Assembly (NCBI RefSeq): GCF_014205015.1
Contig: NZ_JACHMO010000001.1
Location: 7,068,001 to 7,132,000, forward strand
Reading direction: 5' to 3'
Length of the DNA: 64,000 nucleotides
From: Saccharothrix ecbatanensis
Lineage (GTDB): Bacteria > Actinomycetota > Actinomycetes > Mycobacteriales > Pseudonocardiaceae
The position numbers were made by a program, and so were the translations under genes. This document shows, one piece after another, positions 5,116-18,780 of the stretch; the stretch's first letter is position 1; the number at the start of each line of letters is the position of its first letter. The notes under the pieces are model-generated. The model worked only from the letters and a program-made list of their open reading frames with translations, was not told the DNA's origin and searched no databases.

Positions 5116-5691
5116 CTAGTGGTCCCCCAGTGAGGTCGTAGGGCTTTCGTTCCAGAGGGCGGCGACCCAGAAGAACTCGCCGTCCGCGTCGTAGTCGAAG
5201 ATCACCGCGGCGGTGCCCGCGGTCAGCGCGTCCCCGCCCGGCTGCCGCACCTGCACGACGGCCGACGAGCCGTCCTCGGCGGTGACCTCGGCCTGGCCGA
5301 ACGTCTGCGTCACGCTGCCGGTCCGGATGACGCACCGGCGGCCGACGAAGTCCAGTCGGGACGCGGGCGGATCGGCCGGGAACAGCCGCTTCAACGGCGT
5401 CATCACCAGCCGGGCCAGCACCAGCCCCACGACGAGCGACCCGGCCAGCACGGCCGCGCCCACCGCCGTCGACGGTCGCAACAGGACGGTGCCCGCCAGG
5501 CACGCGAACCACGAGAACACGACCATCAGCGAAGCGCCGACCGTCGCGGGCACGCCGCCGATGTCCAGCTCGACCCAGTCCGTGTCCGCCACGCCGAAAG
5601 CGGCCAGCAGCCAGAAGACGAGGACGACGACCAGCAGGATGGTCAGCAGAACGACGGGAAAATCCAGTGCCGCCGTGAAGAACTGCCCCAT
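5116..5691 (-). CDS. YqiJ/NfeD-like membrane protein with OB fold
   Basis: 191 residues. Three hydrophobic helices in the first ~100 residues (FPVVLLTILLVVVLVFWLLA; a second near 48-70; VLAGSLVVGLVLARLV) precede a soluble beta-rich C-terminus (RLDFVGRRCVIRTGSV, later GTAAVIFDYDADGEFFWVA) that fits an NfeD/YqiJ-type OB fold. Proteins of this kind are the usual partners of flotillins and are thought to assist their assembly. It is first in the three-gene operon and is preceded by an 80-bp gap. Start ATG at 5689-5691. No metal or catalytic motif was seen. Confidence 0.75.
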   Translation of the reverse strand: MGQFFTAALDFPVVLLTILLVVVLVFWLLAAFGVADTDWVELDIGGVPATVGASLMVVFSWFACLAGTVLLRPSTAVGAAVLAGSLVVGLVLARLVMTPLKRLFPADPPASRLDFVGRRCVIRTGSVTQTFGQAEVTAEDGSSAVVQVRQPGGDALTAGTAAVIFDYDADGEFFWVAALWNESPTTSLGDH

Positions 5692-5771
5692 GTGGCCCCC
5701 TTTCGCGGGACTTTAACCCGTTCCTGAGGGGAAACTGAGCGGAATCACGCAACGCGGTTGAAACAACCCGT

Positions 5772-6992
5772 TCAGTACACGAGCAGGCCGGACACCCTCG
5801 TCAACCCGTTGCCCGCGTAGCTGACCACCGCGCCGTCCTCGAACGGCATCGAGCGGATGCTCATGCCCGCGAACCCGCTGTCCGTCACGAACCAGCCCCA
5901 CACGGTCAGCCACGGGCGGTCGTCACCGGGGACGACATCCGGCGTGGGGCGCACGCGCTCCTGCACGACGTACGGCTGCTTCTCGACGTCGTCGAGGAGT
6001 TGTGCCCACTCCTTGTCGGTCATCAGCCAGCCGGGGTGGATGCCGGTGCCCGCGAACTCGCCGGAGGCCTTGACGATCAAGTTCTCCCGGTTGCCGCGGA
6101 CCTCGTCGCGCGGCACGTCCCGGAGGTAGCGGGTCCACGGCAGGAGCCGGTCCACCAACGCCTTCTCGTCGTCGGTCAGCTTCTCGCGGTGCTCCGACAG
6201 CAGCGCGAGGGTGGACTTGTCGCCGTACAGGTAACTGGAGAACGGCGTGTACAGCTCAGTCTTGTGGCCCTTCGCCAGGACGTCCGCCTTGCCGACGGCC
6301 TGCTTCGCGGAGAAGTACCGGACCACCACGTCGAGTTTCGTGCCGTGGAGGTACAGGTGGCCGTTGCGTTCGGTCAGCTCGTCCAGCTCGCCGAGCAGCA
6401 CGTCGACGCCCAGGCGTGCACAGGCTTCCTTGATGCCGGCGAAGCCCTTGGCGAACCGCGCCAGCATGCCGCCCTCTTCGAGGAACGCGATGGTGCGGTC
6501 GCGGCCGACGGCGTCGAGCAGCTTCTCGACCGGGTTGAAGAAGCGCAGGTCGTGCTCTTGGACGAACGGCTGGAAGCCCGGGTTCTCGTGGATCGCGCGG
6601 GCCAGCTCGCCGAGGTCGGGGCCGCCGAGCGAGGAGCCCGCGTTGATCTCCAGCAGCCGGAAGTCGTCACCGACGCGGTAGATGTCCGCGCGGCCGTGCA
6701 TCGGCGGGCGGTCGGAGCCCATCAGCGCGGCTTCGGCCGGCGGGATGCCGAGGGCGTCGGCGAAGCGGGTGAAGCTGCCGTCGAACATCTTCTTCGGCAG
6801 GGTGAAGAGGAGTTCGAAGAAGTCCATCATGTCGGCCGCGACGCTGTGCGCGGTGTGCTCGTCCAGGAAGAACGGCCGGCCGACTAACCGGTGGCCGTAG
6901 GCGGCTTCGAGGTGCGGTGGCAGGTCGAGCCGGCCCATCACCCCGTGCACGCTCTCGTCGTCCAGGTACGCCTGCGTCACGTGGTCGGTCAC
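5772..6992 (-). CDS. ATP-grasp-like enzyme, substrate unknown
   Basis: 406 residues from a GTG at 6990-6992, chosen because GAGGAG lies five bases upstream; the frame is open a further 12 codons to 7028 but lacks such a site. Two stretches look like an ATP-grasp fold of the glutathionylspermidine-synthase or circularly permuted type: FRLLEINAGSSLGGPDLGEL near residue 110 (metal/nucleotide side) and NLIVKASGEFAGTGIHPGW followed by YVVQERV near 305-345 (ATP-binding lysine). Such enzymes form carboxylate-amine or peptide bonds. No substrate can be named. It lies 54 bp downstream of the TetR gene on the same strand and is probably cotranscribed with it. Confidence 0.6.
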   Translation of the reverse strand: MTDHVTQAYLDDESVHGVMGRLDLPPHLEAAYGHRLVGRPFFLDEHTAHSVAADMMDFFELLFTLPKKMFDGSFTRFADALGIPPAEAALMGSDRPPMHGRADIYRVGDDFRLLEINAGSSLGGPDLGELARAIHENPGFQPFVQEHDLRFFNPVEKLLDAVGRDRTIAFLEEGGMLARFAKGFAGIKEACARLGVDVLLGELDELTERNGHLYLHGTKLDVVVRYFSAKQAVGKADVLAKGHKTELYTPFSSYLYGDKSTLALLSEHREKLTDDEKALVDRLLPWTRYLRDVPRDEVRGNRENLIVKASGEFAGTGIHPGWLMTDKEWAQLLDDVEKQPYVVQERVRPTPDVVPGDDRPWLTVWGWFVTDSGFAGMSIRSMPFEDGAVVSYAGNGLTRVSGLLVY

Positions 6993-7046
6993 GTCTGCTC
7001 CTCGGTGCCGGGGCGGGTCGCGGCACATGATGTCGGAGCGGACGGG

Positions 7047-7592
7047 TCAGCCGGCGAAGATCCCCCGCAGCACCCTGCGGACGACCGCGGTGGGGTCGAA
7101 GTCCTCGCGCGGGTTGGCCAGGTGGTTCGCCAGCAGGCCGTCGACCAGGGCGAGCACCACGGCCAGGTCGGCCCGCGGGTCGGTCGAGCCGAGGCCGGCG
7201 ATCAGGGGCACGGCCCAGCCGGCGATCTCGCGGTGCGCCCGGTCCACTTCGGGGCGCAGCTCCGGCCGTTGGGCCACTTCGACGAACAGCGCGTGACGGG
7301 CGAGGGTGACCGCGGGGTCGGCGGCCAGGCGTTCGACCAGGGCGCCGACGGTCCGGGCGAAGGCGTCGGGGGTGGTGACGTCGCCGGCGAGGCTGCCCCA
7401 GAGCTCGGTCTCCCGTTCGAGGAGGCGGTCGAGGACGCCGGTGATCAACGCGTCGCGGGTGCGGAAGTGGTTTGACGTCGAGCCCTGGGGGAGGCCCGCC
7501 GCGGTGTCGACGGCGCGGTGGGTCAGCTGGCGCATCCCACCGGAGCCCAACACGCGGATCGCGGCGTCGAGCACTTGCTGCTGCTTGGTCAT
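7047..7592 (-). CDS. TetR-family transcriptional regulator
   Basis: 181 residues from the ATG at 7590-7592 (MTKQQQVLDAAIRVL); an upstream in-frame ATG at 7604 would run into the operator. Residues ~5-50 form a TetR DNA-binding domain (QLTHRAVDTAAGLPQGSTSNHFRTRDAL). The rest is a helical ligand-binding domain ending in a hydrophobic stretch (ADLAVVLALVDGLLANHL). It is divergent from the FAD monooxygenase gene with a 56-bp intergenic region that holds two copies of a palindrome, so it very likely represses both itself (with the ATP-grasp gene behind it) and the monooxygenase. Ligand unknown. Confidence 0.9.
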   Translation of the reverse strand: MTKQQQVLDAAIRVLGSGGMRQLTHRAVDTAAGLPQGSTSNHFRTRDALITGVLDRLLERETELWGSLAGDVTTPDAFARTVGALVERLAADPAVTLARHALFVEVAQRPELRPEVDRAHREIAGWAVPLIAGLGSTDPRADLAVVLALVDGLLANHLANPREDFDPTAVVRRVLRGIFAG

Positions 7593-7601
7593 CGATCGCC
7601 A

Positions 7602-7637
7602 CACTACACCCGTAGTAGATTTACTACATCTGTAGTA
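7602..7637. promoter_or_regulatory. Double TetR operator between tetR and monooxygenase
   Basis: Positions 7622-7637 are a perfect dyad, TACTACA-TC-TGTAGTA. Positions 7602-7617 carry a second copy (CACTACACCCGTAGTA) with two mismatches in the arms. The copies start 20 bp apart, about two helical turns. They fill most of the gap between divergent genes, which is the classical place for a TetR-family autoregulatory operator. Dimer binding to both sites is inferred. Confidence 0.8.
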
Positions 7638-7648
7638 CGTTGGGACGC

Positions 7649-8677
7649 ATGGGACTTCGACGTGCAGCGGTTATCGGTGGAGGGGTCGGCGGCCTGGCCG
7701 CCGCGGTCGGGTTGCGCCGGCACGGGTGGGAGGTGACCGTCTTCGAGCGTTCGGCGGCGCTGCCCGAAGTCGGCACCGGGCTGGGGATCTGGCCCGACGC
7801 GATGGAGGCGCTGGACCGGCTCGGAGTGGGCGGCGCCGCACGTCGGGTCGGTCGACGGCAGCCCGACGGCGCCCTGCGCAAACCGGACGGCACGCTGATC
7901 GCGGCCCTCGGCGCGAACTCGGTCCACCTGCTCACCCGGCCCGCGTTGCTCGGGGTGCTGGCGGACGCGTTGCCGGCGGGGGTGGTTCGGTTCGGGACGC
8001 CGGCGGGGTTGGCCGAGTGCGACGAGTACGACTTGGTCGTGGGGGCGGACGGCATCCACAGCGCGGTGCGCGGTGAGCTGTTCGATGCGGAGATCCGCAC
8101 CTCCGGCGCGACCGGCTGGCGCGGCACGGTCGACTTCCCGGTCGCGACGGGCGGCGAGACGTGGGGCAAGGGCGTCAAGTTCGGCCTCACCCCGCAGGCC
8201 GACGGGCGCACCAACTGGTACGCGATGGGCGACGACCTCTCGCACTTCGCCGACTGGCACGACCCGATCCCGCGGATCCTCGCGTCGGCTTCCGACGTGC
8301 TGCGGCACGAGCTGCTGCACCTGGCGCCGCTGCGCCGCTATGTGTCCGGGACGGTGGCCCTGATCGGCGACGCCGCGCATGCCATGACACCGGACCTCGG
8401 GCAGGGGGCGTGCCAGGCGATCATCGACGGCACGGTGCTGGCCGAGTGCCTGACGGGTGACGTCGAGGCGGGTTTGCGCGAGTACGACCGGGTGCGTCGG
8501 CCCGTGACGCAGCGGCTGGCGGCGCGGTCGCTTCAGCTCAACCGGCTGGCACGGGTGCGTCGGCTGACCCGTGCCCGGGATGCTTGCCTGCGTTTGGCAC
8601 TGACCCTGGCACTGCGCCGCCGGGCGCGCACCGAGCCGTGGAGTGCCGACCTCGAACCCGACGAGCTCGCGGGCTAG
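7649..8677 (+). CDS. FAD-dependent monooxygenase (PHBH/UbiH-like)
   Basis: 342 residues from the ATG at 7649-7651; no clear ribosome site precedes it and the operator ends only 11 bp upstream, so the transcript may be nearly leaderless. It has the Rossmann FAD motif GGGVGGLAAAVGLRRHGWEV at residues ~8-27, a DG motif (GADGIHSAVR, about 135) and the second FAD motif GDAAHAMTPDLGQGACQAI at about 244. This is group A flavin monooxygenase architecture, using NAD(P)H and O2 to hydroxylate a small aromatic or polyketide-like molecule. It is shorter than the usual ~380-400 residues. Control by the divergent TetR is likely. Its stop overlaps the stop of the convergent exonuclease gene by a few bases. 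Confidence 0.88.
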   Translation: MGLRRAAVIGGGVGGLAAAVGLRRHGWEVTVFERSAALPEVGTGLGIWPDAMEALDRLGVGGAARRVGRRQPDGALRKPDGTLIAALGANSVHLLTRPALLGVLADALPAGVVRFGTPAGLAECDEYDLVVGADGIHSAVRGELFDAEIRTSGATGWRGTVDFPVATGGETWGKGVKFGLTPQADGRTNWYAMGDDLSHFADWHDPIPRILASASDVLRHELLHLAPLRRYVSGTVALIGDAAHAMTPDLGQGACQAIIDGTVLAECLTGDVEAGLREYDRVRRPVTQRLAARSLQLNRLARVRRLTRARDACLRLALTLALRRRARTEPWSADLEPDELAG

Positions 8678-9540
8678 GACTGGGGCAGCTTCACGGACTT
8701 GCGGGTGCGGGGAGCGGACGGCGGCGGCACGACCGGGCCGATGTCGCCGTCCGGGGCCTCGTCCAGGTCGACGACCACCGGGGCGTGGTCGCTCGGCCCT
8801 GTGCCCTTGCGCGCGTGCCGGTCCACCCAGGCGGCCTTGACCCGTGCGGCGACCGGGTCGGACGCGAGGACCAGGTCGATGCGCATGCCGAGGTCCTGGT
8901 GGAACATGCCGGCGCGGTAGTCCCAGTAGGTGAAGACGCGTTCGGTGGGCCAGCGGTCGCGGACCACGTCGTGCAGGCCGGCGGCCTGGAGTGCGGCGAG
9001 CGCTTCGCGTTCGGGGGCGGTCACGTGCGTGTGGCCGACGTAGGCCGCCGGGTCGAACACGTCGGCGTCGGCGGGCGCGATGTTGACGTCACCGCAGACG
9101 ACGACCGCCTCCGGGCCCGCGGCGACGACGTCCCGCAAGGCGGACAGCCAGGCCAGCTTGTAGTGGTAGTGGTCGGAGTCGGGCACCCGGCCGTTGGGGA
9201 CGTACACCGAGTGCACCCGCACCCCACCGCACGTGGCGGCGACCGCCCGTGCCTCCGGGTGTGGGAAACCCGGGCCGTTCGGCAGGCCGTTGACGACGTC
9301 GTCCAGGCCGACGCGGGAGAGGATCGCCACCCCGTTCCAGCGACCCTCGCCGTGCGCCGCCGCCTGGTAGCCGCGGGAGGCCAGCTCGTCGCCGAGGAGC
9401 GCGGTGAAGGCGTCGTCGGCGAGTTTGGTCTCCTGGAGGCAGACGACGTCAGGTTGCCGCTGGTCGAGCCACGGCAGGAACCGCGGCAGGCGCTGCTTGA
9501 CCGAGTTCACGTTCCAGGTAACCACCCGCACCCGTCCCAC
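8674..9540 (-). CDS. xth: Exodeoxyribonuclease III (AP endonuclease, ExoIII type)
   Basis: 288 residues from the GTG at 9538-9540 (VGRVRVVTWNVNSV). A GTG three codons later is possible; the frame is open to 9594 but the extra residues do not fit the family. It has the endonuclease/exonuclease/phosphatase fold motifs in order: TWNVNSV, LQETKL, HSVYVPNG, CGDVNIAP, RIDLVLAS and GPSDHAPVVVDL. The metal and catalytic Asn, Glu, Asp and His residues are all present. It repairs abasic sites and 3' blocks in DNA. A short basic tail (TRKSVKLPQS) ends the protein. It is convergent with the monooxygenase gene. Confidence 0.93.
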   Translation of the reverse strand: MGRVRVVTWNVNSVKQRLPRFLPWLDQRQPDVVCLQETKLADDAFTALLGDELASRGYQAAAHGEGRWNGVAILSRVGLDDVVNGLPNGPGFPHPEARAVAATCGGVRVHSVYVPNGRVPDSDHYHYKLAWLSALRDVVAAGPEAVVVCGDVNIAPADADVFDPAAYVGHTHVTAPEREALAALQAAGLHDVVRDRWPTERVFTYWDYRAGMFHQDLGMRIDLVLASDPVAARVKAAWVDRHARKGTGPSDHAPVVVDLDEAPDGDIGPVVPPPSAPRTRKSVKLPQS

Positions 9541-9667
9541 GGTAGCGCCGATGACCCCTGACCTGCACCGCAAGCCCGTTCGTGCGCACGTCACGTGACG
9601 GCACCCACACCGAACACCCCACCACCCCGCTCACCGGTGGACCGGGTCTCGGTAAGCTGTCGCCCGA

Positions 9668-9743
9668 GGGCTGCTAGCTCAATTGGCAGAGCAGGAGACT
9701 TTTAATCTTCGGGTTCAGGGTTCGAGTCCCTGGCGGCCCACCA
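9668..9743 (+). tRNA. tRNA-Lys (anticodon TTT)
   Basis: Full cloverleaf of 76 nt with encoded CCA. Acceptor GGGCTGC (9668-9674) pairs with GCGGCCC (9733-9739). D arm is GCTC/GAGC. Anticodon stem GGAGA/TCTTC encloses loop CTTTTAA with anticodon TTT. T arm is CAGGG-TTCGAGT-CCCTG. Its 3' portion is duplicated at 16571-16605, so it has served as an integration site while being kept intact. Confidence 0.97.
9707..9741 (+). repeat. Left attachment repeat inside tRNA-Lys
   Basis: 35-bp sequence beginning CTTCGGGTTCAGGG and ending GGCGGCCCAC. It covers the end of the anticodon stem, variable loop, T arm, 3' acceptor strand and the first base of CCA. It is identical to 16571-16605. Confidence 0.9.
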
Positions 9744-9828
9744 AACGTGCTGGTCAACGCGGTAGTGGGGAATCAGGTCAGAGCCAAATCCCCCACTTAC
9801 CCGCCGAATTAATTTCCATCGGTGCTGG

Positions 9829-9930
9829 TCACGGCCGTGAGCACGTCCGCTGCGGCGGGCAAGCAGCGAACTTGGCCACGGCATGTATGTCCCGCCAGTC
9901 GTCATCAGGCCACTTGTCGTCGCCGGCCAC
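9829..9930 (-). CDS. Small putative ORF, 33 residues, unknown function
   Basis: GTG at 9928-9930 with AGGGG four bases upstream opens a 33-codon frame ending in TGA at 9829-9831. The protein begins MAGDDKWPDDDWRDI and contains a short Cys-Pro-Pro segment. It lies 14 bp downstream of the XRE gene on the same strand and could be the last gene of that operon. It is too short to judge by codon usage, and I do not recognise it. A competing frame over the same bases is antisense to tRNA-Lys and not credible. Confidence 0.3.
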   Translation of the reverse strand: MAGDDKWPDDDWRDIHAVAKFAACPPQRTCSRP

Positions 9931-9944
9931 CGTGCCCCTGGTTG

Positions 9945-10388
9945 CTACTCGGCCCTCGCGGACCGCTGGTGAAGTGCCTCCGGCATGTGCCGCCGAGGAA
10001 TGCCCGCGTAGAGCGCCAGGCCGTCCAGCGCCCGCATGTCCGGTGTCAACGTGGCGCGCAGCAGCGGGTCGAACGGGTCGACCATCTCCCGATGCATCCG
10101 CGCCACGTCCGCCAACAGGTCCAGCACCGGCACGCCCAGGACATCGCAGTACATGGCGAGGCTTGCCGGACTCGCCCCACGCCGACCGTTCTCGATCTTG
10201 GACAGCAACGCCTCCGACACGTCGAACCGGCTCGCGATCCTGGCAACGGGAATGCCTCGCTGCTCCCGCAACTTCCGCAGGTGCGCGCCCAACACCACGT
10301 GGTAGAGCGCCCGTCGTGCGGGCCTGCGCCGCGTCATCTGCCGTCCGACTTCCCCGGCCGCCGCGATCTCCTCACCCACTGCGGTCAC
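9945..10388 (-). CDS. XRE-family DNA-binding protein
   Basis: 147 residues from a GTG at 10386-10388 that overlaps the stop of the upstream gene (GTGA). A helix-turn-helix of the Cro/C1 type occupies about residues 35-90: LRKLREQRGIPVARIASRF, then SEALLSKIENGRRGASPASL. The remainder is helical with no enzyme motif. The coupling with the preceding 124-residue gene suggests a two-gene regulatory or toxin-antitoxin-like unit, a common arrangement of small XRE genes in actinomycete islands, although the partner is not the usual DUF397. Target unknown. Confidence 0.8.
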   Translation of the reverse strand: MTAVGEEIAAAGEVGRQMTRRRPARRALYHVVLGAHLRKLREQRGIPVARIASRFDVSEALLSKIENGRRGASPASLAMYCDVLGVPVLDLLADVARMHREMVDPFDPLLRATLTPDMRALDGLALYAGIPRRHMPEALHQRSARAE

Positions 10389-10759
10389 CGGGGGTCCTCC
10401 GCAGACGTCCCGGTCTCGGCGAACGCCACCGAGTCGACCACGGCGGGCGGCTTGTCGTTCTCCCGTTCCACCGCCGCCGCGACTTCGTCAGGCGTGGTGC
10501 CCAGGGTGGCCGCGAGAGCGTCGAAGTCCAACGGCGCGAGCTTCGTCAACGCCTCGCACCGTTCGGCGAACACTCCTGCAGCTTCCTCCAGTTGGCGTGC
10601 GAACCGGATGGCCATCTCAGCGCCACCCTCGCGTCCGGCGATCTGCACCGTCATCCGCGCGTCGCCGGACGAGATCACCAAGGACGGATGTCCCTGCGCC
10701 CGCTCGACCACGCCCGCATCCGCGTCTTCCTCCGGCTGGAGAAGTACGTACAGCCCCAT
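10385..10759 (-). CDS. Conserved-looking hypothetical protein coupled to XRE gene
   Basis: 124 residues from the ATG at 10757-10759, preferred because GGAGG lies eight bases upstream; a TTG at 10795 gives a longer frame. The N-terminus is MGLYVLLQPEEDADAG. The middle is mixed alpha/beta with a helical segment (EMAIRFARQLEEAAGVFAER); the C-terminus is acidic and probably disordered. No signal peptide, membrane segment or metal motif was seen, and I do not recognise the family. Its stop overlaps the start of the XRE gene, so the two are made together. It is divergent from the HTH/TPR regulator, with a 165-bp intergenic region probably holding both promoters. Confidence 0.6.
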   Translation of the reverse strand: MGLYVLLQPEEDADAGVVERAQGHPSLVISSGDARMTVQIAGREGGAEMAIRFARQLEEAAGVFAERCEALTKLAPLDFDALAATLGTTPDEVAAAVERENDKPPAVVDSVAFAETGTSAEDPR

Positions 10760-10924
10760 CGGCCTCACCTCCGCGTACACCTGGGACTTGCTCAACCAGA
10801 TTCACGCGAACGGAAGGGCGATCCCATACGAATGCCCACTCGGAATAGTGGCGTCACCGTTAACCGCAGGTCAGCCGCGTAATCACCGGGCTACACTCCG
10901 ACATCTTCAGAGCTTGCGCAGGGG

Positions 10925-12388
10925 GTGATCGAAGTAGTGACCACGTCCAAACGCCGCTGCCGCACATGCGACACCCTGCTTGCCCATGACAACCGGGGCA
11001 CCCAGTGCGGAAAGTGCGTCGCAGCCTCTACGCTCCACGCCCCCAAGCTGCCGCCGGAGTTCTGGACGCAGCCCACCCTGCGCGAGGCTTTCGAGTCCCG
11101 CAGCATCGGCCAGGTCTTCCGCGCCTACCGCCAGGCCCAGAGCCCCACGGTGCCTCAAGCCACCCTGTCGACCTGGCTCGACCTCACCCAAGGCCGCGTC
11201 AGCGAGGTCGAGCGCACCCGCCGCCCGGTCACCGACCTCGAACGTCTCGAACGCTGGTGCAACGCCCTCCACGTGCCGCACCACCTCCGGTGGTTCAACG
11301 GCGGAGTGCGCGAAGTCCACGACGTCCAGGCGCTGTACGCCAGCCGCACGGTAGACCCAGCACCCGCCTACACAGCCCAGCCATCATGGGCGCCAGGCGA
11401 CCAAGGCAGCACACCTCAAGTCCCCCAAGAACTGGACATCGTCCACGTCGGCATCCCACGCCTACGCCGCTCGCTCGACATCCTTGACCTACCCGACGAC
11501 GGCCCCACGCGAGCCCTGACCGAGCTGCGCGCCGACGTCACCCGGATGAACGAGCACCGACTTGAAGCGCGCTACGGCGAACTCGTACGCCACCTACCCA
11601 GCCTGATCGGCGAACTGTCCCGCGCCCGCCAACTCCTCACCGCAGCCGACCGGCGTCACGTCGCCTCTCTGCTGACCCTGGCCCTACGCGCGGCTGACGG
11701 GGTGGCCTACAAGTACCGCTACTTCGACCTGTCCGCGCGCATCATCGACCTCATGCGCGTGACCGCCCAGGAGTCCGAAGACCCGTTGCTGCCCTCAGCG
11801 ATGTCCTACGTGCGCACCGAAACGTTCTTCGCCAGCGGCGACCTACACACAGCCGCCCGAGCCCTCGACCAAGCCGCGGACCAGATCCCCACCCGTGACC
11901 TGAAACAGGCCCCGACCGCAGCAGCCTTCGGCGCACTCCACATGCGCGCCGCAGTCGTAGCAGCCCGAGCAGGCAAAGCCGACATCGCAGCCGACCACCT
12001 ACTCACCGCCCGCTACGCCGTCCACGCCGCCCCGGAAGGCGTCTACCACGGAACCGCATTCGGCCCCGCTTCACTGCGCATCCACGAGCTGGCCGTAGCC
12101 GCCGAACTCCGCGACCCCGCAGGCATCCAACGAGCGTCCACCTGGCAGCCACCACAAGCGCTACCCGCCGAACGCCGCTCGCACTACTTCATCGACCTGG
12201 CGAGAGCCCAACTAGACCTGGGCCACCACGAAGACGCCTACCTCTGCTTGCAAGCCGCCCGCCAAGCAGCACCCGAACACACGCGCAACCATCCACAGGT
12301 CCGCCAAGCCCTATCGGTCCTACTGCGCACCCACCCGTCACTCAGCTCCGGCCTACTCGACCTGGCCGCGTGGGCTGGCGCTCGCTGA
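10925..12388 (+). CDS. HTH regulator with N-terminal zinc ribbon and TPR-like region
   Basis: 487 residues from a GTG at 10925; another GTG four codons later has better spacing from the AGGGGG at 10919-10924 region and may be the true start. Residues ~11-32 carry two Cys-x2-Cys knuckles (CRTCD and CGKC). Then comes a helix-turn-helix (QATLSTWLDLTQGRVSEVER) and, from about residue 190, helical repeats resembling TPR (ALRAADGVAYKYRYFDLSAR; AARAGKADIAADHLLTARYA). This is the layout of actinomycete XRE-TPR regulators that sense a peptide or small ligand. Codon use is GC-rich like the host. It is convergent with the HAD gene. No second component is obvious. Confidence 0.7.
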   Translation: MIEVVTTSKRRCRTCDTLLAHDNRGTQCGKCVAASTLHAPKLPPEFWTQPTLREAFESRSIGQVFRAYRQAQSPTVPQATLSTWLDLTQGRVSEVERTRRPVTDLERLERWCNALHVPHHLRWFNGGVREVHDVQALYASRTVDPAPAYTAQPSWAPGDQGSTPQVPQELDIVHVGIPRLRRSLDILDLPDDGPTRALTELRADVTRMNEHRLEARYGELVRHLPSLIGELSRARQLLTAADRRHVASLLTLALRAADGVAYKYRYFDLSARIIDLMRVTAQESEDPLLPSAMSYVRTETFFASGDLHTAARALDQAADQIPTRDLKQAPTAAAFGALHMRAAVVAARAGKADIAADHLLTARYAVHAAPEGVYHGTAFGPASLRIHELAVAAELRDPAGIQRASTWQPPQALPAERRSHYFIDLARAQLDLGHHEDAYLCLQAARQAAPEHTRNHPQVRQALSVLLRTHPSLSSGLLDLAAWAGAR

Positions 12389-12410
12389 GCCGACACACCG
12401 GCCTATCCGC

Positions 12411-13058
12411 TCACGCCTTCACCAATAGCTCCGGCAGCTCGTGCAGCGAGTCGATCACCCAATCAGCATCACGACGCACCAACGGATCATCGGCCCACAG
12501 ATGCCCCCACGGCCCCCGCCGGATCAACGCAGTACGCAGCCCAGCCGCCTTAGCCGCAACGACGTCGTTGTCACGGTGATCACCGACGTACAGCACATCA
12601 CCCGCAGCCGCCGCAGGCGTCATGCCCACGACCCGCTCGAAGAACTCAGCCGCAGGCTTGGCCACACCCCACTCACCAGACGTAGCGATCCCGTCCACCG
12701 GCAGGCCCAATGCCCGCAGCAGCTCAGCCGCCCGAGCAGTTTGGTTCCCCGCCACCCCGACCCACAGCCCGACCTGCCGCAACCCCGCCAACCCGGTCCG
12801 CACATCCGGGTACAGATCCCCGCTCTCGATCTGCTCGCCCACCCCAGCCCGCTCCCGCAACTCCCGCTGGTGAACAACATCGAACCCAGGCCGGAAATAC
12901 TGGAACGTCTCAGCGTTGTCCCGCCCCGCCGCAGTCACCGCGCCCAACACCGTCGAGAAGGTGTGCCGGGACACCCCGATCCAGTCGGCCCACGCCCCCC
13001 ACTCTCGTGAGTCGTCCAGCAACGTCTCACCCACGTCGAACACCACCGCAGACACCAT
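12411..13058 (-). CDS. HAD-superfamily hydrolase
   Basis: 215 residues, ATG at 13056-13058. Motif I FDVGETLLDD (nucleophile Asp8), motif II near VAGNQTA, motif III lysine in WGVAKPAAEFFER and motif IV VGDHRDNDV are all present, so it should be an active haloacid-dehalogenase-type phosphatase. The cap is a small helical insertion after motif I (TFSTVLGAVTAAGRDN). The substrate cannot be deduced. It is carried as cargo between the HTH/TPR gene, which is convergent, and a long gap before the STAND gene. Confidence 0.85.
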   Translation of the reverse strand: MVSAVVFDVGETLLDDSREWGAWADWIGVSRHTFSTVLGAVTAAGRDNAETFQYFRPGFDVVHQRELRERAGVGEQIESGDLYPDVRTGLAGLRQVGLWVGVAGNQTARAAELLRALGLPVDGIATSGEWGVAKPAAEFFERVVGMTPAAAAGDVLYVGDHRDNDVVAAKAAGLRTALIRRGPWGHLWADDPLVRRDADWVIDSLHELPELLVKA

Positions 13059-13736
13059 GACCTACTCCTACGGCATCAGCACTCGCCGCGCGACAACGAC
13101 ATCAGTCCCGCCCATGCTCAGGTGCCGCGACGTCGGTGTTCAGAGTTTCTTTTCTTCATCAAGGCGGCCCCCTGCGGGGGCTGCTGGCCGTTCGTGTCTG
13201 TTCGGGCTGTTGCGGGCAGCAGCCCTCGCAAGCAACCGCGTGAACAGACTTGTTCGTATGGAAGCAGGGCTTGTGGCTTCTGGGCTTGGGACGAGCGCCA
13301 CGTGGTCACCCTGGTCGGGCTGGTCTTGGCGCTCGGCTGCCACGCTTGCGGACAGCTCGACGCCTCGACGGCATCGACCAGCCCACAAGCTTGCCATCGT
13401 CTCTTCTCGGAACTCATTGACATGTCAACAGGTAGAGAAGACCTACGCGCTAGCTTGTCCACGATTAACGTCGGCGAACAATTATAGTGGATGAGAAGCT
13501 GCAAATACCGTGCACTGTCAAGTGCACGAAATCTGGTATCAACAACTCGGGTGCACATAATTCAATATCGCGAAGAATCGCGGAAGACTTCAAGGTGTCA
13601 AGGCCTTCTTCATCGAGAAGGTTAACCAAACATTCCGTCCGCTTAAAGACTCTCCGAGTGTGACTGCACCCGCAATTGTTCTTGGCTGCAAGAAATCACC
13701 TAGACAGACTATGAAAAGATGCGACTAGTTCGACGC
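13059..13736. other. 678-bp gap inside the island, no convincing gene
   Basis: The left third is GC-rich and includes a strong hairpin near 13163-13184 (GCGGCCCCC-TG-CGGGGGCTGC), with a pyrimidine-rich run before it on the plus strand; it could be a terminator-like structure but has no clear U-tract. From about 13480 the composition drops sharply in GC and matches the following STAND gene. Open frames of 120-146 codons exist on both strands, but their Cys/Trp-rich or low-complexity products do not look like proteins. The promoter of the HAD gene should lie at the left edge. Confidence 0.5.
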
Positions 13737-16118
13737 TCATTTACCCTCGCCCCCAAGGGTTCCAAAGAGATCCGAGATAGCGTCACCACGGCGTTCCGGA
13801 TAACTTACAATATCGAAAGTTAGCTGACCTGATTTAATCTCGCGACTTACGCGATCATCCACCTCAGATTCAAGTTCGTATTCCGAGTCAAGAACTTCTT
13901 GGATCTCTTCAAAAATGTCGTCAAGAGAGCCATCGACAGTGTAACCCAACTCGTTTGCTGCCTCTTGTATCTCCTCATACGCAGTTGGCAGCTCACTAGG
14001 TTCATTCTCATAGAAGCTTCGCCAGTATTCATCGACAAAGTTTCGAAATTCGTCCAAGTACCACTCGGTGGAGTAACCGTGCAGCTCGATTGCGAGATTG
14101 ACCAGGAAAACATGATCACTAGGTGTATCGAGCGAGGCTTGAAACCAACCTTCGACAGCATCCGCCAACGTGTCGAACGCGAAGCTTCCGCAGAGAGGCG
14201 GCCCCGATGAGGGTTGAATTAGTCTAACGGCGTCCAAGGCGCTCGCTTTATCAAGGCGACGTAGATGCGCATTAGACGCACCTGCGTCTAGAAAAAGTGC
14301 AAGCTCAATTACAATTGGGTCCATCTCTTCAGCCGAGAGTCCGATATCCAAACCGGCGCGAACTACTTCCTCAACTCTCTCACCTTGATCCACCGGCCAC
14401 GGTGAGTGGACCATCCCAGATCCCGACACAGCGCAATCCGGCACCGGCAAAAGGCGTAGCATCGTACTTGTCAGCAGGTAGCGTTCGCGCACCAAAATCG
14501 CCCGCAGGTCAGGCATTACAACTTTACCATTTCTCGGCCACGACCTGAAGCGACCGTCATAGATCCACCGAGAAACTGCGACGGCCTGCTCAAACCGGAC
14601 AGCCGACCTTAGAAGGGAATGCCCGATCTCCGGATTCTCATCGATGAACAGATGCAAGTAGTCGCGAAAAGACGGATTGTAGATCGATATCGCCGATTCT
14701 TCCTGAAAGAGAAAGATCCCTGTGTAGAGAGTGAGAAATACTCCGTCCAGGTCGGCGATAGCCCTACGGACAACGTGAGGTTCTGACGCAGCCCTCCTAT
14801 AGTCAGCCTGGAAAGAAGCAAGTGCAGCCTTAAAGTCTTCGATACCGCAGTCTCGCGGCAAGCTCGCTAGTACAAGCAGGCAATCTTGAGCCACCGCAGA
14901 GATATGCCTGCTGAATGCGTGTTTCCAAAGTTCAACAGGGTTGTCGAGCACCTTCACAAAGAATTCCGCTAATGAGCCCTTTAGCTGACTAAGCTCAAGG
15001 CCAGCGAGCTGGATTGCCAGTTCAATTAAGCGAGGATTGTAATTCTTGTGGCGCACAACCTGACGGTATCGTCCATCTTGCAGCATGGTTCCAACTAGAT
15101 AGGCCGGAAGGTTGGAATAGTAGAGATGGTTATAGAGAATGTGCGCTCGATGAAGCTCGTTGTAACTGGACAGGTTGAGTACAAATTTCTTGTCTCTCAC
15201 CAAAGGTGAATCGATTTTCTCATGCACGTGCACGGCTTGTCGATATAGATATTCTCGGGTTGTCAAGATGAGGTAGTGGTCTTCCTCTCGCTGAAGTCGG
15301 GCCATAAAAGAAACGAGACGAGAATCTTCATTCTTTGCAAGTTTGTCACCATCTGCAGAGGTCTGGCCAAGGAAGTCGTCATAGTAAAAAACCTGTTTGC
15401 CTCCCGGGTTGAATGCCCGTTCAGCTTCCTCGATATCCTTGGAAACCGGAATGCATTCGTACCCCTTTTCGGCAAGTTCCAAGATCAAAACTTCAGCGAG
15501 AGTGGACTTTCCAGTTCCAGGCTCTCCCGTTATGATGCAAGACCGCCTAGACTTGAGGATCTCCTTGGCTTTACTCAATGCAGGGGTAGGCACAAACGTC
15601 CGAACGCGTTCGCGTGAATCCACGAACAGCCCTCGCTGCCGGAATAGGGTCTCGGCATACAGAAGTCTTTGCATCACCGAAGCGCTCGTCATGTATAGCT
15701 TGTAATTATTGATCTCCACCTGCGGGTATTGGTTGAGAAGGTTGTCAACATCTAATCCGGAGACGATTCTTTCGATCGGCAGGAACCCGGCCTCGAAGCA
15801 ACCGGATAGTTCATCTTTGTTATGAAGCGTAAGATAGCACGACGTGACAAGCCAGTACTCGCCTTTACTGACAGCCTCGGATATGCTGGCCGCTTCTTTC
15901 TTTATCGCCGACTGCAACTTAGAGAAACCGCTAACCTCATAATGCTTGCACTGAATGTACACAGGTCGAACCGCAGACCTCAGAACACGCACGTCGATAC
16001 CGCCATCGGGACCTGGAGGAAAAACTTCAACTGTTTGATCTGACCACTTACTCTGAAACAGGTCGCGCACCAGGCATTCGAAATCGAATGGCGACAGGTC
16101 CCTGTAGTTCCTCGACAT
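13737..16118 (-). CDS. Mrr-type nuclease fused to STAND NTPase, candidate anti-phage protein
   Basis: 793 residues from the ATG at 16116-16118, which has GGAG six bases upstream; a TTG four codons earlier is less likely. Residues ~5-110 resemble a restriction-endonuclease/Mrr fold with the PD-(D/E)xK-type residues in GPDGGIDV (Asp42) and VYIQCKHY (Gln56, Lys58). A P-loop NTPase follows: Walker A GEPGTGKST at 198-206, Walker B VFYYDDF at 243-249, and LILTTREYLY as sensor. This matches the nSTAND3 class. The remaining ~450 residues are helical and could sense a trigger. The C-terminus is highly acidic. Nuclease-STAND fusions of the Avs kind act as anti-phage sensors that cut DNA on activation. 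GC content is far below the flanks, so transfer is clear. Antiviral function is inferred. Confidence 0.75.
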   Translation of the reverse strand: MSRNYRDLSPFDFECLVRDLFQSKWSDQTVEVFPPGPDGGIDVRVLRSAVRPVYIQCKHYEVSGFSKLQSAIKKEAASISEAVSKGEYWLVTSCYLTLHNKDELSGCFEAGFLPIERIVSGLDVDNLLNQYPQVEINNYKLYMTSASVMQRLLYAETLFRQRGLFVDSRERVRTFVPTPALSKAKEILKSRRSCIITGEPGTGKSTLAEVLILELAEKGYECIPVSKDIEEAERAFNPGGKQVFYYDDFLGQTSADGDKLAKNEDSRLVSFMARLQREEDHYLILTTREYLYRQAVHVHEKIDSPLVRDKKFVLNLSSYNELHRAHILYNHLYYSNLPAYLVGTMLQDGRYRQVVRHKNYNPRLIELAIQLAGLELSQLKGSLAEFFVKVLDNPVELWKHAFSRHISAVAQDCLLVLASLPRDCGIEDFKAALASFQADYRRAASEPHVVRRAIADLDGVFLTLYTGIFLFQEESAISIYNPSFRDYLHLFIDENPEIGHSLLRSAVRFEQAVAVSRWIYDGRFRSWPRNGKVVMPDLRAILVRERYLLTSTMLRLLPVPDCAVSGSGMVHSPWPVDQGERVEEVVRAGLDIGLSAEEMDPIVIELALFLDAGASNAHLRRLDKASALDAVRLIQPSSGPPLCGSFAFDTLADAVEGWFQASLDTPSDHVFLVNLAIELHGYSTEWYLDEFRNFVDEYWRSFYENEPSELPTAYEEIQEAANELGYTVDGSLDDIFEEIQEVLDSEYELESEVDDRVSREIKSGQLTFDIVSYPERRGDAISDLFGTLGGEGK

Positions 16119-16570
16119 CAAACACTCCAATCGCGCGTCATCTACGTCACTTACGTGAGACAGTATCGCGCAAGCTTCTCAACTCTGATTGCGGAATGGC
16201 CTCTAAAGGATCAAGGTGCTGCCGCTGGCGGCATGTGCGGTCTGGCACTGCACCAACATCCATCCCGCCCTCCCGGAATCCGCTTCGCTGCGGCGGTCGG
16301 CCTGGCGGCGCTACGCACCGAACCTCAGGCACTAGCTGACGGCCCACCCGACCCGAGCCCTGTTCGTCCACGACTCCCGACGAGCGCCAGCGCGGTCACC
16401 GCAGTCGGCTGTTTTGGCGCTCGACTGATCGACTCCCCCGGCTACCCCCAACTAACGACGACAGACGACCGCGTCATTCGCCCCACAGTGGTGGTTCGCG
16501 TTTGGGAATCTTGCAGGTAGTGGTAGGTGCTGGAAGGCGTCGACAGACGACGAGGCCGCAAATCCACAAC
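16119..16570. other. 452-bp gap between STAND gene and right attachment repeat
   Basis: Holds the promoter region of the STAND gene at its left edge. The rest returns to high GC. Frames of 74-121 codons exist on both strands but show no recognisable domain. I looked specifically for a recombinase C-terminus (R..H.R..Y) and saw none. Confidence 0.45.
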
Positions 16571-16605
16571 CTTCGGGTTCAGGGTTCGAGTCCCTGGCGG
16601 CCCAC
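16571..16605 (+). repeat. Right attachment repeat (copy of the tRNA-Lys 3' end)
   Basis: Exact 35-bp copy of 9707-9741. The bases before it (GCAAATCCACAAC) do not extend an anticodon arm, so this is not a second tRNA gene but an att remnant that marks the distal edge of the island. Confidence 0.9.
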
Positions 16606-16716
16606 AATTATCGGTATTGGCGAGCGCGCGCCCGGTTCGAATTCACCGGGAGGGGATTCCGCCGGACGGGTGACGTCCCTGGAAGTGTCGGCGCGCGGCC
16701 CGATAGGAAGATCACC

Positions 16717-17187
16717 ATGCACCTCGCTGTGGCACTTGCTCTCGCGGCCTCGTTCACCCCCGTCTCCGGGGGACTGACCAGCTACGACCCACGCGTGCCC
16801 GCCGGGGCACGGGCTTCGGTCGTGTCCGCGCCCGTCGGCGACGGCACGGTCGTGCTCCTCGGCACCACCGGCTTGCTGCCCAACCGTGAATATGGCGCAC
16901 ACGCGCACGTCAACCCGTGCGGCGCGGCGCCGGCTGACTCCGGACCGCATTACCAGCACGTGCAGGGCGGAGCGACCGACCCGGCCTTCGCCAACCCCCG
17001 CAACGAGATCTGGCTCGACTTCACCACCGACGCGAGGGGGCGCGGCGTGGCGTTCTCGCGCGTCGACTGGCAGTTCGGCGAACGGCGGGCCCGTTCGGTC
17101 GTCCTGCACGAAGAGCACACCCACACCGAACCCGGCCACGCAGGCACCGCCGGCGCTCGCCTCGCCTGTATCAACGTCCCCTTCTGA
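16717..17187 (+). CDS. Secreted Cu/Zn superoxide dismutase-like protein
   Basis: 156 residues, ATG at 16717 with AGGA upstream. A short signal peptide (MHLAVALALAASFTPVSGG) is followed by a mature domain with SodC-type metal residues: HAHVNPCG (two His and the disulfide Cys), GPHYQH and GHAGTAGARLAC near the end with the second Cys. The canonical SVVIHA segment reads SVVLHEEHTHTE, with extra His residues. This matches short actinobacterial superoxide dismutase family proteins that detoxify superoxide outside the membrane. Activity is not certain because the loops are shorter than in classical SodC. It is the first gene after the island boundary; a hairpin (17199-17208 with 17232-17241) follows it. 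Confidence 0.7.
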   Translation: MHLAVALALAASFTPVSGGLTSYDPRVPAGARASVVSAPVGDGTVVLLGTTGLLPNREYGAHAHVNPCGAAPADSGPHYQHVQGGATDPAFANPRNEIWLDFTTDARGRGVAFSRVDWQFGERRARSVVLHEEHTHTEPGHAGTAGARLACINVPF

Positions 17188-17317
17188 CCAGCAACAACAC
17201 ACCGCTGACGAGCTAGACGACCCCATTGACATCAGCGGTGTAGGCGGCCGGGTCGTTCCGGGTCGTCCGCCAGGCGCGCGCCGTCGATCCGGTTCGGCAT
17301 CGGATCGGCGGCGCGAA

Positions 17318-17470
17318 CCCGTTCGGCGTCACGCGCCGGCGCAGGCGTTCCGGCAGCTGTGCCGCGAGTTCGGCAGCCCCACCTCGCTCTACGTCTGAGA
17401 TGGTCACCGCCCGCGCCATCGTCGCCGAGGACCGGGCCGACCACATCGACATGAACTTCGGCTGCCTGGT
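17318..17470 (+). pseudogene. Decayed copy A of the 5' end of dus
   Basis: Positions 17344-17397 are identical to 19077-19130 of dus. Then 2 bp are lost, shifting the frame into a TGA. The match resumes and continues to CATCGTCG, where 117 bp corresponding to 19160-19276 are missing between two ATCGTCG repeats. The match ends after CGGCTGC at about 17466. Bases 17323-17348 resemble the region upstream of dus (18882-18912). The copy therefore spans promoter side to the catalytic Cys region with at least three deletions. It cannot be expressed as a protein. Confidence 0.85.
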
Positions 17471-17494
17471 GTCAACACACTGACAATCTCGCCT

Positions 17495-17950
17495 TCAGCG
17501 TGGGCTGACCTTCGCCTGACGCCGCTGGTGTCGAGCGAGTGCGGACGACGTCTCGGGCGGCATCATCCGGAGGACCTGGTCCGGCTGTACGTAGAAGACG
17601 TGAGGGTTCCGGTTGTGCGGCCCCCATCCAGTCGACCCACGCACCAGGAGGATGCTCCCCGGCAACGGCCGGCTCCCCTCGAACCACGAGTCTTGTCGAT
17701 AGCCGGTTTCCAGCCACACGATCACGGCCTTCGTGCCACGCCGCGCCCACTGGTACACCTGCGCAACCTGGACGAGGTCGGCACCTGGTGCTGCTGCTCG
17801 CACCGCGAGCATCTCTTGCCACCGGTTGCTCAGGACAGCATCGTTGGCTGCGCGTTGCCTGTTGATGATCCAGATGATGATCGGCACGATCGAAACAAGC
17901 ACGATCGCGATCACAAGCTGCGCCAACACGGTCCCCCCTGCGTGTTCCAT
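17495..17950 (-). CDS. Hypothetical membrane-anchored protein
   Basis: 151 residues from the ATG at 17948-17950. The frame opens further to 18055, but the extra codons are antisense to dus copy B and are unlikely to be translated. One strong transmembrane helix near the N-terminus (VLAQLVIAIVLVSIVPIIIW) is followed by a basic stretch (NRQR) and a cytoplasmic domain with WARRGTKAVIVWLETGYRQ and a Pro/Gly-rich segment. No known family was recognised. It lies between the two dus remnants and is convergent with copy A, so it is probably cargo of the disturbed region. Confidence 0.55.
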   Translation of the reverse strand: MEHAGGTVLAQLVIAIVLVSIVPIIIWIINRQRAANDAVLSNRWQEMLAVRAAAPGADLVQVAQVYQWARRGTKAVIVWLETGYRQDSWFEGSRPLPGSILLVRGSTGWGPHNRNPHVFYVQPDQVLRMMPPETSSALARHQRRQAKVSPR

Positions 17951-17991
17951 CACCTGCCCGCTCGGAACTTGACCTTGACCGAAACCGTGAA

Positions 17992-18041
17992 GATCATCTT
18001 CGCCGAAGACCTGGCCGATCACATCGACATGACTTCGACTG
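17992..18041 (+). pseudogene. Decayed copy B of a short dus segment
   Basis: About 50 bp align with 19266-19316 of dus, the stretch encoding IIVAEDRADHIDMNFGC, with five substitutions and one deleted base. It is more diverged than copy A but covers exactly the segment at which copy A ends. Confidence 0.7.
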
Positions 18042-18070: not shown

Positions 18071-18463
18071 TCAGATGACCACGAGCGGCACACGGACTCC
18101 GGCCGCGTCCGCGAGCTTCCCCAGGTCGCCGGGATCGGAGGTCAACACGGCACAGCCGTGGCTGATCGCCCCGATGACGACCGCCGCATCCACGACATCC
18201 GCGGTGCCGGCCAAGGCGAGCAACCGGCCTACCGCCTCCGCGACATCTTCACTGAAGGGAACGGACCTGCACATTCGGCGCAGCATCGCGACCGGCGCCT
18301 GCCTAGGGCTCGCGCGCCAGACCTGCGCCAGTACCACCGTGGGCAGGAGGGCGGGCACCCCGGCGTCAAGCGCGTCACGACATGCCCCATAAACCCGCCC
18401 CCTGGGATTCGCCTCGACGTGGATCAACGCACCGGCATCAAGGATCAGGCCGCGAACGCTCAA
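18071..18463 (-). CDS. PIN-domain toxin (VapC-like)
   Basis: 130 residues from a TTG at 18461-18463 that overlaps the antitoxin stop (TTGA). PIN signatures are LILDAGALIHVE at the N-terminus (first Asp), DVVDAAVVIGA near residue 88 (Asp pair) and VLTSDPGDLGKL near 108 (last Asp). The usual VLAE glutamate is replaced by Gln in VVLAQVWR, a variant I recall in other actinobacterial PIN proteins. VapC toxins are RNases cutting tRNA or rRNA. Pairing with an upstream RHH-like gene in one coupled operon supports a toxin-antitoxin module. Confidence 0.8.
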   Translation of the reverse strand: MSVRGLILDAGALIHVEANPRGRVYGACRDALDAGVPALLPTVVLAQVWRASPRQAPVAMLRRMCRSVPFSEDVAEAVGRLLALAGTADVVDAAVVIGAISHGCAVLTSDPGDLGKLADAAGVRVPLVVI

Positions 18464-18780
18464 CCCACTCGCCTCTCGTTCGGCAAGCCAAGCAAACGGG
18501 CCAGCGCCGCCGTCCGGGCCGCCGTCTCCTCAGGCGACTCAATCGCACCGACGCCCGCCTCGGCGAGCCGGACGCGGATCTGTTCGAGCTCCGCCTCGTC
18601 CGGTTCGCCGAACCTCGCCGCGTACTCCTGAGCTGCGGCATGGGCTTCGGCGAGGTCCGCCGCGGCTTCGGCGGCCTCCGCCAGCCACGCGGACAACGGC
18701 ATTCCGGCCCGCTCGGCAGCCCGGCGCGCTCGCGCGGCCACGATGTCCGGCAAGGACACGCTCAACTTTTCTACCGCCAT
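18460..18780 (-). CDS. Antitoxin, ribbon-helix-helix type
   Basis: 106 residues, ATG at 18778-18780. The N-terminus AVEKLSVSLPDIVAARARR followed by AGMPLSAWLAEAA has the beta-strand plus two-helix pattern of MetJ/Arc-type DNA-binding antitoxins. The rest is Ala/Glu-rich and should wrap around the toxin. A perfect palindrome 22 bp upstream of the start is the likely autoregulatory site. The stop overlaps the start of the PIN gene, the typical antitoxin-first order. Confidence 0.8.
   Translation of the reverse strand: MAVEKLSVSLPDIVAARARRAAERAGMPLSAWLAEAAEAAADLAEAHAAAQEYAARFGEPDEAELEQIRVRLAEAGVGAIESPEETAARTAALARLLGLPNERRVG

Follow-up and report, generated by a model that had tools for sequence, protein, structure and literature searches.

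A gene in a 64,000-nucleotide stretch of the Saccharothrix ecbatanensis genome (contig NZ_JACHMO010000001.1, positions 7,068,001 to 7,132,000; hereafter the window) probably encodes a single-protein, NLR-like defence against phages or other mobile elements. The gene (13737..16118, minus strand) encodes a protein of 793 residues that begins with an Mrr-type nuclease, continues with an NLR-like nSTAND3 NTPase core and a variable stretch of alpha-helices, and has a conserved helix at its C-terminus. From sequence comparison and structure prediction, we give the defence function a probability of roughly 0.75. The gene appears to have been acquired horizontally, and its product probably cuts DNA once a phage has been sensed. 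An earlier note, made from the letters of the DNA, had proposed a single-gene nuclease-STAND defence candidate at this place. That proposal is well supported by the domains, the invariant residues, the NLR-like core, the sporadic presence of the gene, its carriage on plasmids and the restriction-type genes that hold the same slot in sibling islands.

Domains and conserved residues

The nuclease and the NTPase were both recognized by profile, and their motif residues were invariant. In a Pfam scan, Mrr_cat matched residues 6-61 (E 2.9e-7; 31 bits, cut-off 21) and nSTAND3 (PF20720) matched residues 175-333 (E 4.1e-50, 169.9 bits); these were the profile searches that the earlier note had suggested. 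A homologue search that admitted lengths of 0.55-1.75 times that of the query found 1227 proteins, the best 120 of which were listed and 102 aligned. The aligned homologues are 750-837 residues long, and 793 residues is normal for the family. D42, Q56 and K58 of the nuclease, which the earlier note had numbered exactly, were invariant (102/102), as were G198, G201, G203, K204, D247, D248 and R288 of the NTPase (102/102).

The nuclease domain (residues 1-130; 15729..16118, minus strand, as for all parts of the gene) is delimited by Pfam, the alignment and the structural model. Its assignment to the Mrr type is based on the D...QxK motif together with the profile match, and the order of elements in the predicted model, helix-strand-strand-strand-helix-strand, fits a PD-(D/E)xK fold. 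The NTPase (residues 171-335; 15114..15608), delimited by Pfam, the alignment and structural matches, has a Walker A motif at about residues 198-205, a Walker B motif and a STAND-type core, in sequence as well as in predicted fold, in agreement with the P-loop STAND domain claimed before. The NLR-like core then continues with a conserved helical segment (residues 336-515; 14574..15113), as judged from column conservation and structural matches. The structural matches of the model cover about residues 155-550, the NLR-like core, and the list of matches was filled by the NTPase part.

The presumed sensor is smaller than first thought. The earlier note had assigned about 450 residues to a helical sensor; about 180 of these (residues 336-515) belong to the conserved NLR-type core, and about residues 516-755 (13854..14573) stand as a variable alpha-helical region, whose repeat-like nature is suggested by middling matches. 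This region is followed by a linker (residues 756-773; 13800..13853) predicted to be disordered and a conserved tail helix (residues 774-789; 13752..13799). The reading frame ends at 13737, stop codon included, and starts with ATG at 16118; an alternative TTG start is possible 12 nucleotides upstream.

These parts suggest how the protein might work. In the resting state it would be closed, its tail helix lying against the conserved core. A trigger made by the phage may bind the variable helical region, and ATP binding would then allow subunits to form a ring of the kind seen in resistosomes and Avs proteins. The ring would bring the nuclease domains together, and DNA would be cut and the phage or the cell killed. 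The trigger probably differs between homologues, since no part of the protein is less conserved than the presumed sensor.

Swappable cargo of a tRNA-Lys island

The gene is swappable cargo of an island integrated at a tRNA-Lys gene. The integration target is tRNA-Lys(TTT) (9668..9743, plus strand), and a 38-nucleotide direct repeat (9704-9741 and 16568..16605, plus strand) delimits the island; its copies differ by one mismatch (97% identity), the first being the 3' end of the tRNA gene and the second the putative attR. The cargo slot (13400..16427) is defined by comparison with four sibling islands (G002, G017, G022 and G001): nucleotide homology to them ends at 13395-13400 and restarts at 16427-16440. 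The islands of G008 and G018 do not have these slot edges in common with the window. The slot of the window contains the Mrr-nSTAND3 gene, called the largest cargo of a tRNA island in the earlier note, and no second large family-matched open reading frame (ORF). The foreign base composition claimed for the gene was also confirmed: its GC content is 0.506, compared with a mean of 0.703 (standard deviation 0.019; z -10.3) in 262 overlapping windows of the same length from the stretch outside the island.

The tRNA-Lys site is empty in some relatives and occupied in others. We compared ten genomes outside the source genome (G000) that have at least 72% identity in the right-flanking gene, which is dismutase-like by eye and has some relative in 25 of 25 genomes of the genus. 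In G020 and G003 the tRNA-Lys gene lies 294 and 112 bp, respectively, from the right-flanking gene, and the site is empty; it is occupied in G002, G017, G022, G008 and G018. About 1.5-1.7 kb separates the two genes in G019 and G021, and the contig of G001 covers only the right part of the site.

Each sibling slot contains, among smaller ORFs, something different (comparison of window positions 13400-16427 with loci L039, L040, L041 and L046). G002 has a GmrSD_N-HNH gene. G017 has a gene for an 892-residue TPR protein, with NTPase-like matches under cut-offs and GC-rich third positions. In G022 (L041:2040-5659), a gene for an 834-residue GHKL-type ATPase adjoins one for a C5 cytosine methyltransferase, and the pair resembles a restriction-modification system with an unusual ATPase-type partner. 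The slot of G001 (L046:2745-5295) encodes a 560-residue ATPase with an ORC/CDC6-like match and a 309-residue partner that matches nothing in Pfam or PADLOC at E 0.001; this pair is a possible unnamed two-gene defence candidate. Outside the slot, G017 also has a HEPN and GmrSD_N pair adjoining the hydrolase gene, and this GmrSD_N protein matches PADLOC NsnA (2e-54) and PD-T4-2_A (1e-44). The GC content of the G017 HEPN/GmrSD, G022, G002 and G001 groups is 0.508-0.529, in loci of about 64-68% GC.

The rest of the island includes a backbone shared with some siblings. This part comprises genes for an XRE-type regulator (HTH_31; 9945..10388, minus), which has a 70% relative near the second paralogue of the genome described below; a 136-residue protein common to G017 and G022 (10385..10795, minus); a 487-residue protein that weakly matches HTH and TPR families (10925..12388, plus), nearly whole in G017 and G022 (the ORF being split in G022) and in fragments in G008; and a HAD-family hydrolase common to G002, G017, G022 and G008 (12411..13058, minus). 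C-terminal remnants matching Phage_integrase lie beside the tRNA gene in G017 and G022, and by eye a closely similar remnant is present in G002. At the site in G018 (L047:3123-12435) we noted by eye what looks like a complete actinomycete integrative element with FtsK-like, Rep-like and full-length integrase genes. Just outside the island of the window, 18071-18780 encodes a PIN-domain protein (Pfam match below cut-off) and a small partner, possibly a toxin-antitoxin pair.

The conserved C-terminal tail

Conservation returns at the very end of the protein. Mean information per alignment column is 1.9-2.6 bits over residues 1-515, about 0.9 over 516-778 and 2.35 over 779-788, and F785 (101 of 102 aligned homologues) is the sole invariant or nearly invariant column after Q511. 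The motif [ILVMFAY]xx[LIVMF]Fxx[LIVMFA] was found within the last 45 residues of 101 of the 102, and in a mean of 1.89 and a maximum of 7 of 102 shuffled tails (200 rounds); the pattern was written after the data had been seen, and the proteins compared are related. Among the best 120 of the 1227 homologues, 112 have the motif, and the eight that lack it include several shortened proteins. Eighteen listed homologues were left out of the alignment: 11 with the motif, by thinning, and seven without it (P0059, P0081, P0082, P0091, P0097, P0113 and P0120), whose ends looked shortened or odd. Those seven were chosen after the tails had been viewed, which favours the count of 101 of 102. The acidic C-terminus pointed out in the earlier note is real, and the motif, absent from that note, lies there.

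Additional sets of proteins gave a similar picture; they may overlap with the 120 listed homologues, and identity to the query falls to about 20% for some members. The phenylalanine is kept in 11 of 12 long frames, with methionine in the paralogue from the same genome, and in nine of 11 loci in another set, the others having methionine (one) or a split gene without the residue (one). Eleven Pseudomonadota loci, besides G489, were picked by the NTPase profile alone. The ten compact proteins among them keep [LIM]-F, some without the final hydrophobic residue of the motif; the one long protein, a 1,285-residue nSTAND3 frame (L105), does not have the motif.

Predicted structures suggest that the tail may pack against the core formed by nuclease and NTPase. 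In the full-length model, residues 774-789 form a helix, with a predicted local distance difference test score (pLDDT) of 88 for block 781-790 and 64 for block 771-780, and the linker (756-773) scores below 50. A separate model of residues 516-793, built with the same homologues, scored 79-96 in the body (546-755) and 60 and 59 in tail blocks 776-785 and 786-793, and its helix shrank to 779-786. The scores of the two models are given for blocks of different residues; over residues 776-793 the estimated values are about 75 (full) and about 60 (fragment), a real drop, though smaller than 88 versus 60 suggests. In addition, the two model alignments differ, the fragment is badly aligned over roughly its first 35 residues, and pLDDT is not affinity. 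Placement of the tail on the core is the simplest reading of the models. Docking in cis would fit the pattern in which core and tail are conserved and the intervening region is not; a partner in trans is an alternative explanation of the tail.

We tentatively suggest that the acidic linker and the h-x-x-[LIM]-F-x-x-h helix might form a built-in cis latch that docks on the nuclease-NTPase core, spans a sensor that is free to evolve, is released by the trigger, and is conserved in compact Mrr-nSTAND3 proteins across bacterial phyla and in an archaeon. We rate this as possible but less likely than not, in part because the pLDDT blocks of the two models cover different residues. We found no description of an autoinhibitory tail of this kind for the family in the accessible portions of the open-licence literature, nor of the tail itself in the available text of PMC12931631, PMC9122126, PMC10853773 and PMC7159879.

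Distribution, known relatives and competing explanations

The Mrr-nSTAND3 architecture is already known. The protein matches the profile of the PADLOC defence candidate PDC-S73 (E 1.2e-115, 386 bits, residues 4-498), which has the same architecture; the match stops at position 493 of the 752-position profile, and the C-terminal third with the tail lies outside it. The name PDC-S73 was not found in the open-licence literature. The tripartite AVAST (Avs) plan, an N-terminal effector, a central STAND and a C-terminal helical region, is present. Avs4, which senses terminase or portal, likewise combines an Mrr-type nuclease effector with a STAND and helical repeats; likened by description, it is much larger and of another STAND subfamily. 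In the PADLOC profile comparison, with E values of up to 1 admitted, ten families gave a match and none of them bears an Avs name. One of these matches, to Aga_TIR-PNTD1-PNTD2, covers the N-terminal 158 residues (E 1.5e-24); the REase-TIR proteins of class I Aga systems have only this part in common, and the remainder of the profile is unmatched. Plant TIR-NLRs and CED-4 show 10-14% identity and differ in their effector and sensor domains.

Two published groups resemble the protein by description. The part of PMC12931631 available describes Avs5 (AVAST type 5; Sir2-nSTAND3), which senses an early jumbo-phage protein and is alike in nSTAND3 (PF20720) and tripartite plan. The effector of Avs5 is a Sir2 NADase whereas that of the window protein is an Mrr nuclease, and Sir2 is not among the 25 of 29 Pfam families listed for our protein. 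STAND NTPases of enterobacterial P4-satellite hotspots are built on the same effector-STAND-repeat plan, and their effector can be Mrr_cat, SIR2 or TIR (PMC9122126, in the portion available). In the open-licence literature, nSTAND3 is named in the Avs5 study and a mosquito-virus study, and PF20720 in the Avs5 study.

The gene is sporadic in its own genus and occurs in distant phyla. Seven of 99 genomes, from genus to order, had a match to the protein: a long one in G088 (other family, 35%), the second copy in the same genome, a truncated frame in the congeneric G016, and four short matches around the P-loop (E 2.7e-4 or weaker). The second copy (L049, G000:C1:8870000-8889900, at 7474-9732) is full-length (752 residues, 33% identity, E 1.6e-74) and has methionine in place of the tail phenylalanine. 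It lies about 4 kb from tRNA-Gly and tRNA-Pro genes downstream, and its 20-kb stretch contains no exact repeat of either of at least 18 nucleotides. With the nSTAND3 profile at 90 bits or more, two of 25 genus genomes matched, the source genome and one with a truncated frame, which excludes the uniform vertical presence that the earlier note had named as evidence to the contrary; the 90-bit floor was used because at E 0.001 all 25 genus genomes and all 14 controls match, and at the curated cut-off 10 of 25 versus 7 of 14. At E 1e-15, 3 of 396 genomes of a phylum sample matched (own included), and at E 1e-12, 12 of 398 Pseudomonadota, 11 of them at about 4e-36 or better; the 12 include G489, the sample centre chosen for having a match. 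The same architecture at the same size also occurs in Pseudomonadota, Bacteroidota, Chlorobiota and one archaeon, and PDC-S73 models it; a special status of the compact form in a high-GC actinomycete is not supported. In a midpoint-rooted tree of residues 1-515, the query groups with metagenome proteins P0002-P0004, inside a larger clade that also includes homologues from Actinomadura, Lentzea and Streptomyces.

Homologues are carried on plasmids, and some lie near defence-type genes. Among 72,556 plasmid records, 50 match, 29 of them predicted conjugative; many matches cover about 60% of the query (residues 1-500), some are N-terminal only and one reaches 80%. Two of 50,697 phage records match, both gut contigs without annotation. 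We noted that one gut contig deposited as a bacteriophage, an unverified record (MT836619.1, L083), has at 4965-7388 an 808-residue frame with nSTAND3, a near-cut-off Mrr_cat and the tail motif. Relatives on a Streptomyces plasmid (GC content 0.542 in a setting of 0.679) and at the second locus of the genome (0.517 versus 0.680) are GC-poor, and that of Streptomyces laculatispora is not (0.651 versus 0.655). The 79 neighbour proteins (larger ORFs) of 11 distant-homologue loci (L051-L061) matched 137 PADLOC families at E 1e-20, many overlapping; among the 25 listed are type I methyltransferase and specificity subunits (two proteins each), type IIG, HamA/HamB (Hachiman), PD-T7-5 and mads. The 42 window genes outside the island matched one family, mad3. 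Eight annotated plasmid regions have no obvious fixed partner gene; an AbiEii toxin, a diversity-generating retroelement and Tn7-like genes each occur in single regions, and HEPN proteins in three.

Several results weigh against the proposed defence function. A profile search of PDB sequences turned up no relative of the nuclease part with a solved structure (its single match has E 0.67), and the structural match list was filled by the NTPase. The absence of a nuclease fold, which would have spoken against the earlier proposal, was not seen; the fold itself was not matched directly. The linkage control is 42 genes from one region of one genome rather than matched random loci, which makes the neighbour scan supportive and not a rate. 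No integrase was found in 9001-18000 by tblastn with two relatives, or by Pfam among the larger ORFs of the island, and the cargo could be stranded because the island has no recognizable integrase. The best candidate in that interval (E 0.026, 41 residues, 29% identity) was not credited. AT-rich DNA might also be silenced in a high-GC actinomycete. That the gene is stranded, silent or decaying cargo without present function, as the missing integrase and the truncated frame in G016 might indicate, is nevertheless very improbable in our view: the 793-codon frame is intact, all invariant residues are kept, and a second full-length paralogue is maintained elsewhere in the genome.

The protein might instead act as a type IV restriction-like enzyme that recognizes foreign or modified DNA directly; the NTPase would then work as a switch on DNA and need no protein as trigger. 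Modification-dependent restriction is associated with the Mrr family, and many homologues have the database name 'restriction endonuclease'. We consider this unlikely, since both sequence and predicted fold liken the NTPase to NLR/STAND proteins, the C-terminal region forms a variable array of alpha-helices as in protein-sensing STANDs, and the 25 of 29 Pfam families listed include no known DNA-reading domain. A somewhat less improbable alternative is that the protein acts on plasmids or rival mobile elements instead of phages, and that carriage on plasmids and islands serves competition between elements. The predicted conjugative plasmids among the matching records and the different islands at the tRNA-Lys site, one with a gene set that by eye resembles an actinomycete integrative and conjugative element, fit this idea, but the neighbours and slot-mates are of general restriction and anti-phage types, and both roles are possible together.

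Based on these comparisons, we favour a single-protein NLR-like defence, which, if correct, would place a compact one-gene NLR-like nuclease among the defences of a high-GC actinomycete. The tRNA-Lys island contains a cassette slot that, within one genus, exchanges different restriction-type, NTPase or ATPase genes. If the latch exists, it would account for sensors that no longer align although regulation is preserved, and the near-invariant phenylalanine in a hardly alignable C-terminal third offers a direct handle on how bacterial NLR-like nucleases may stay off.
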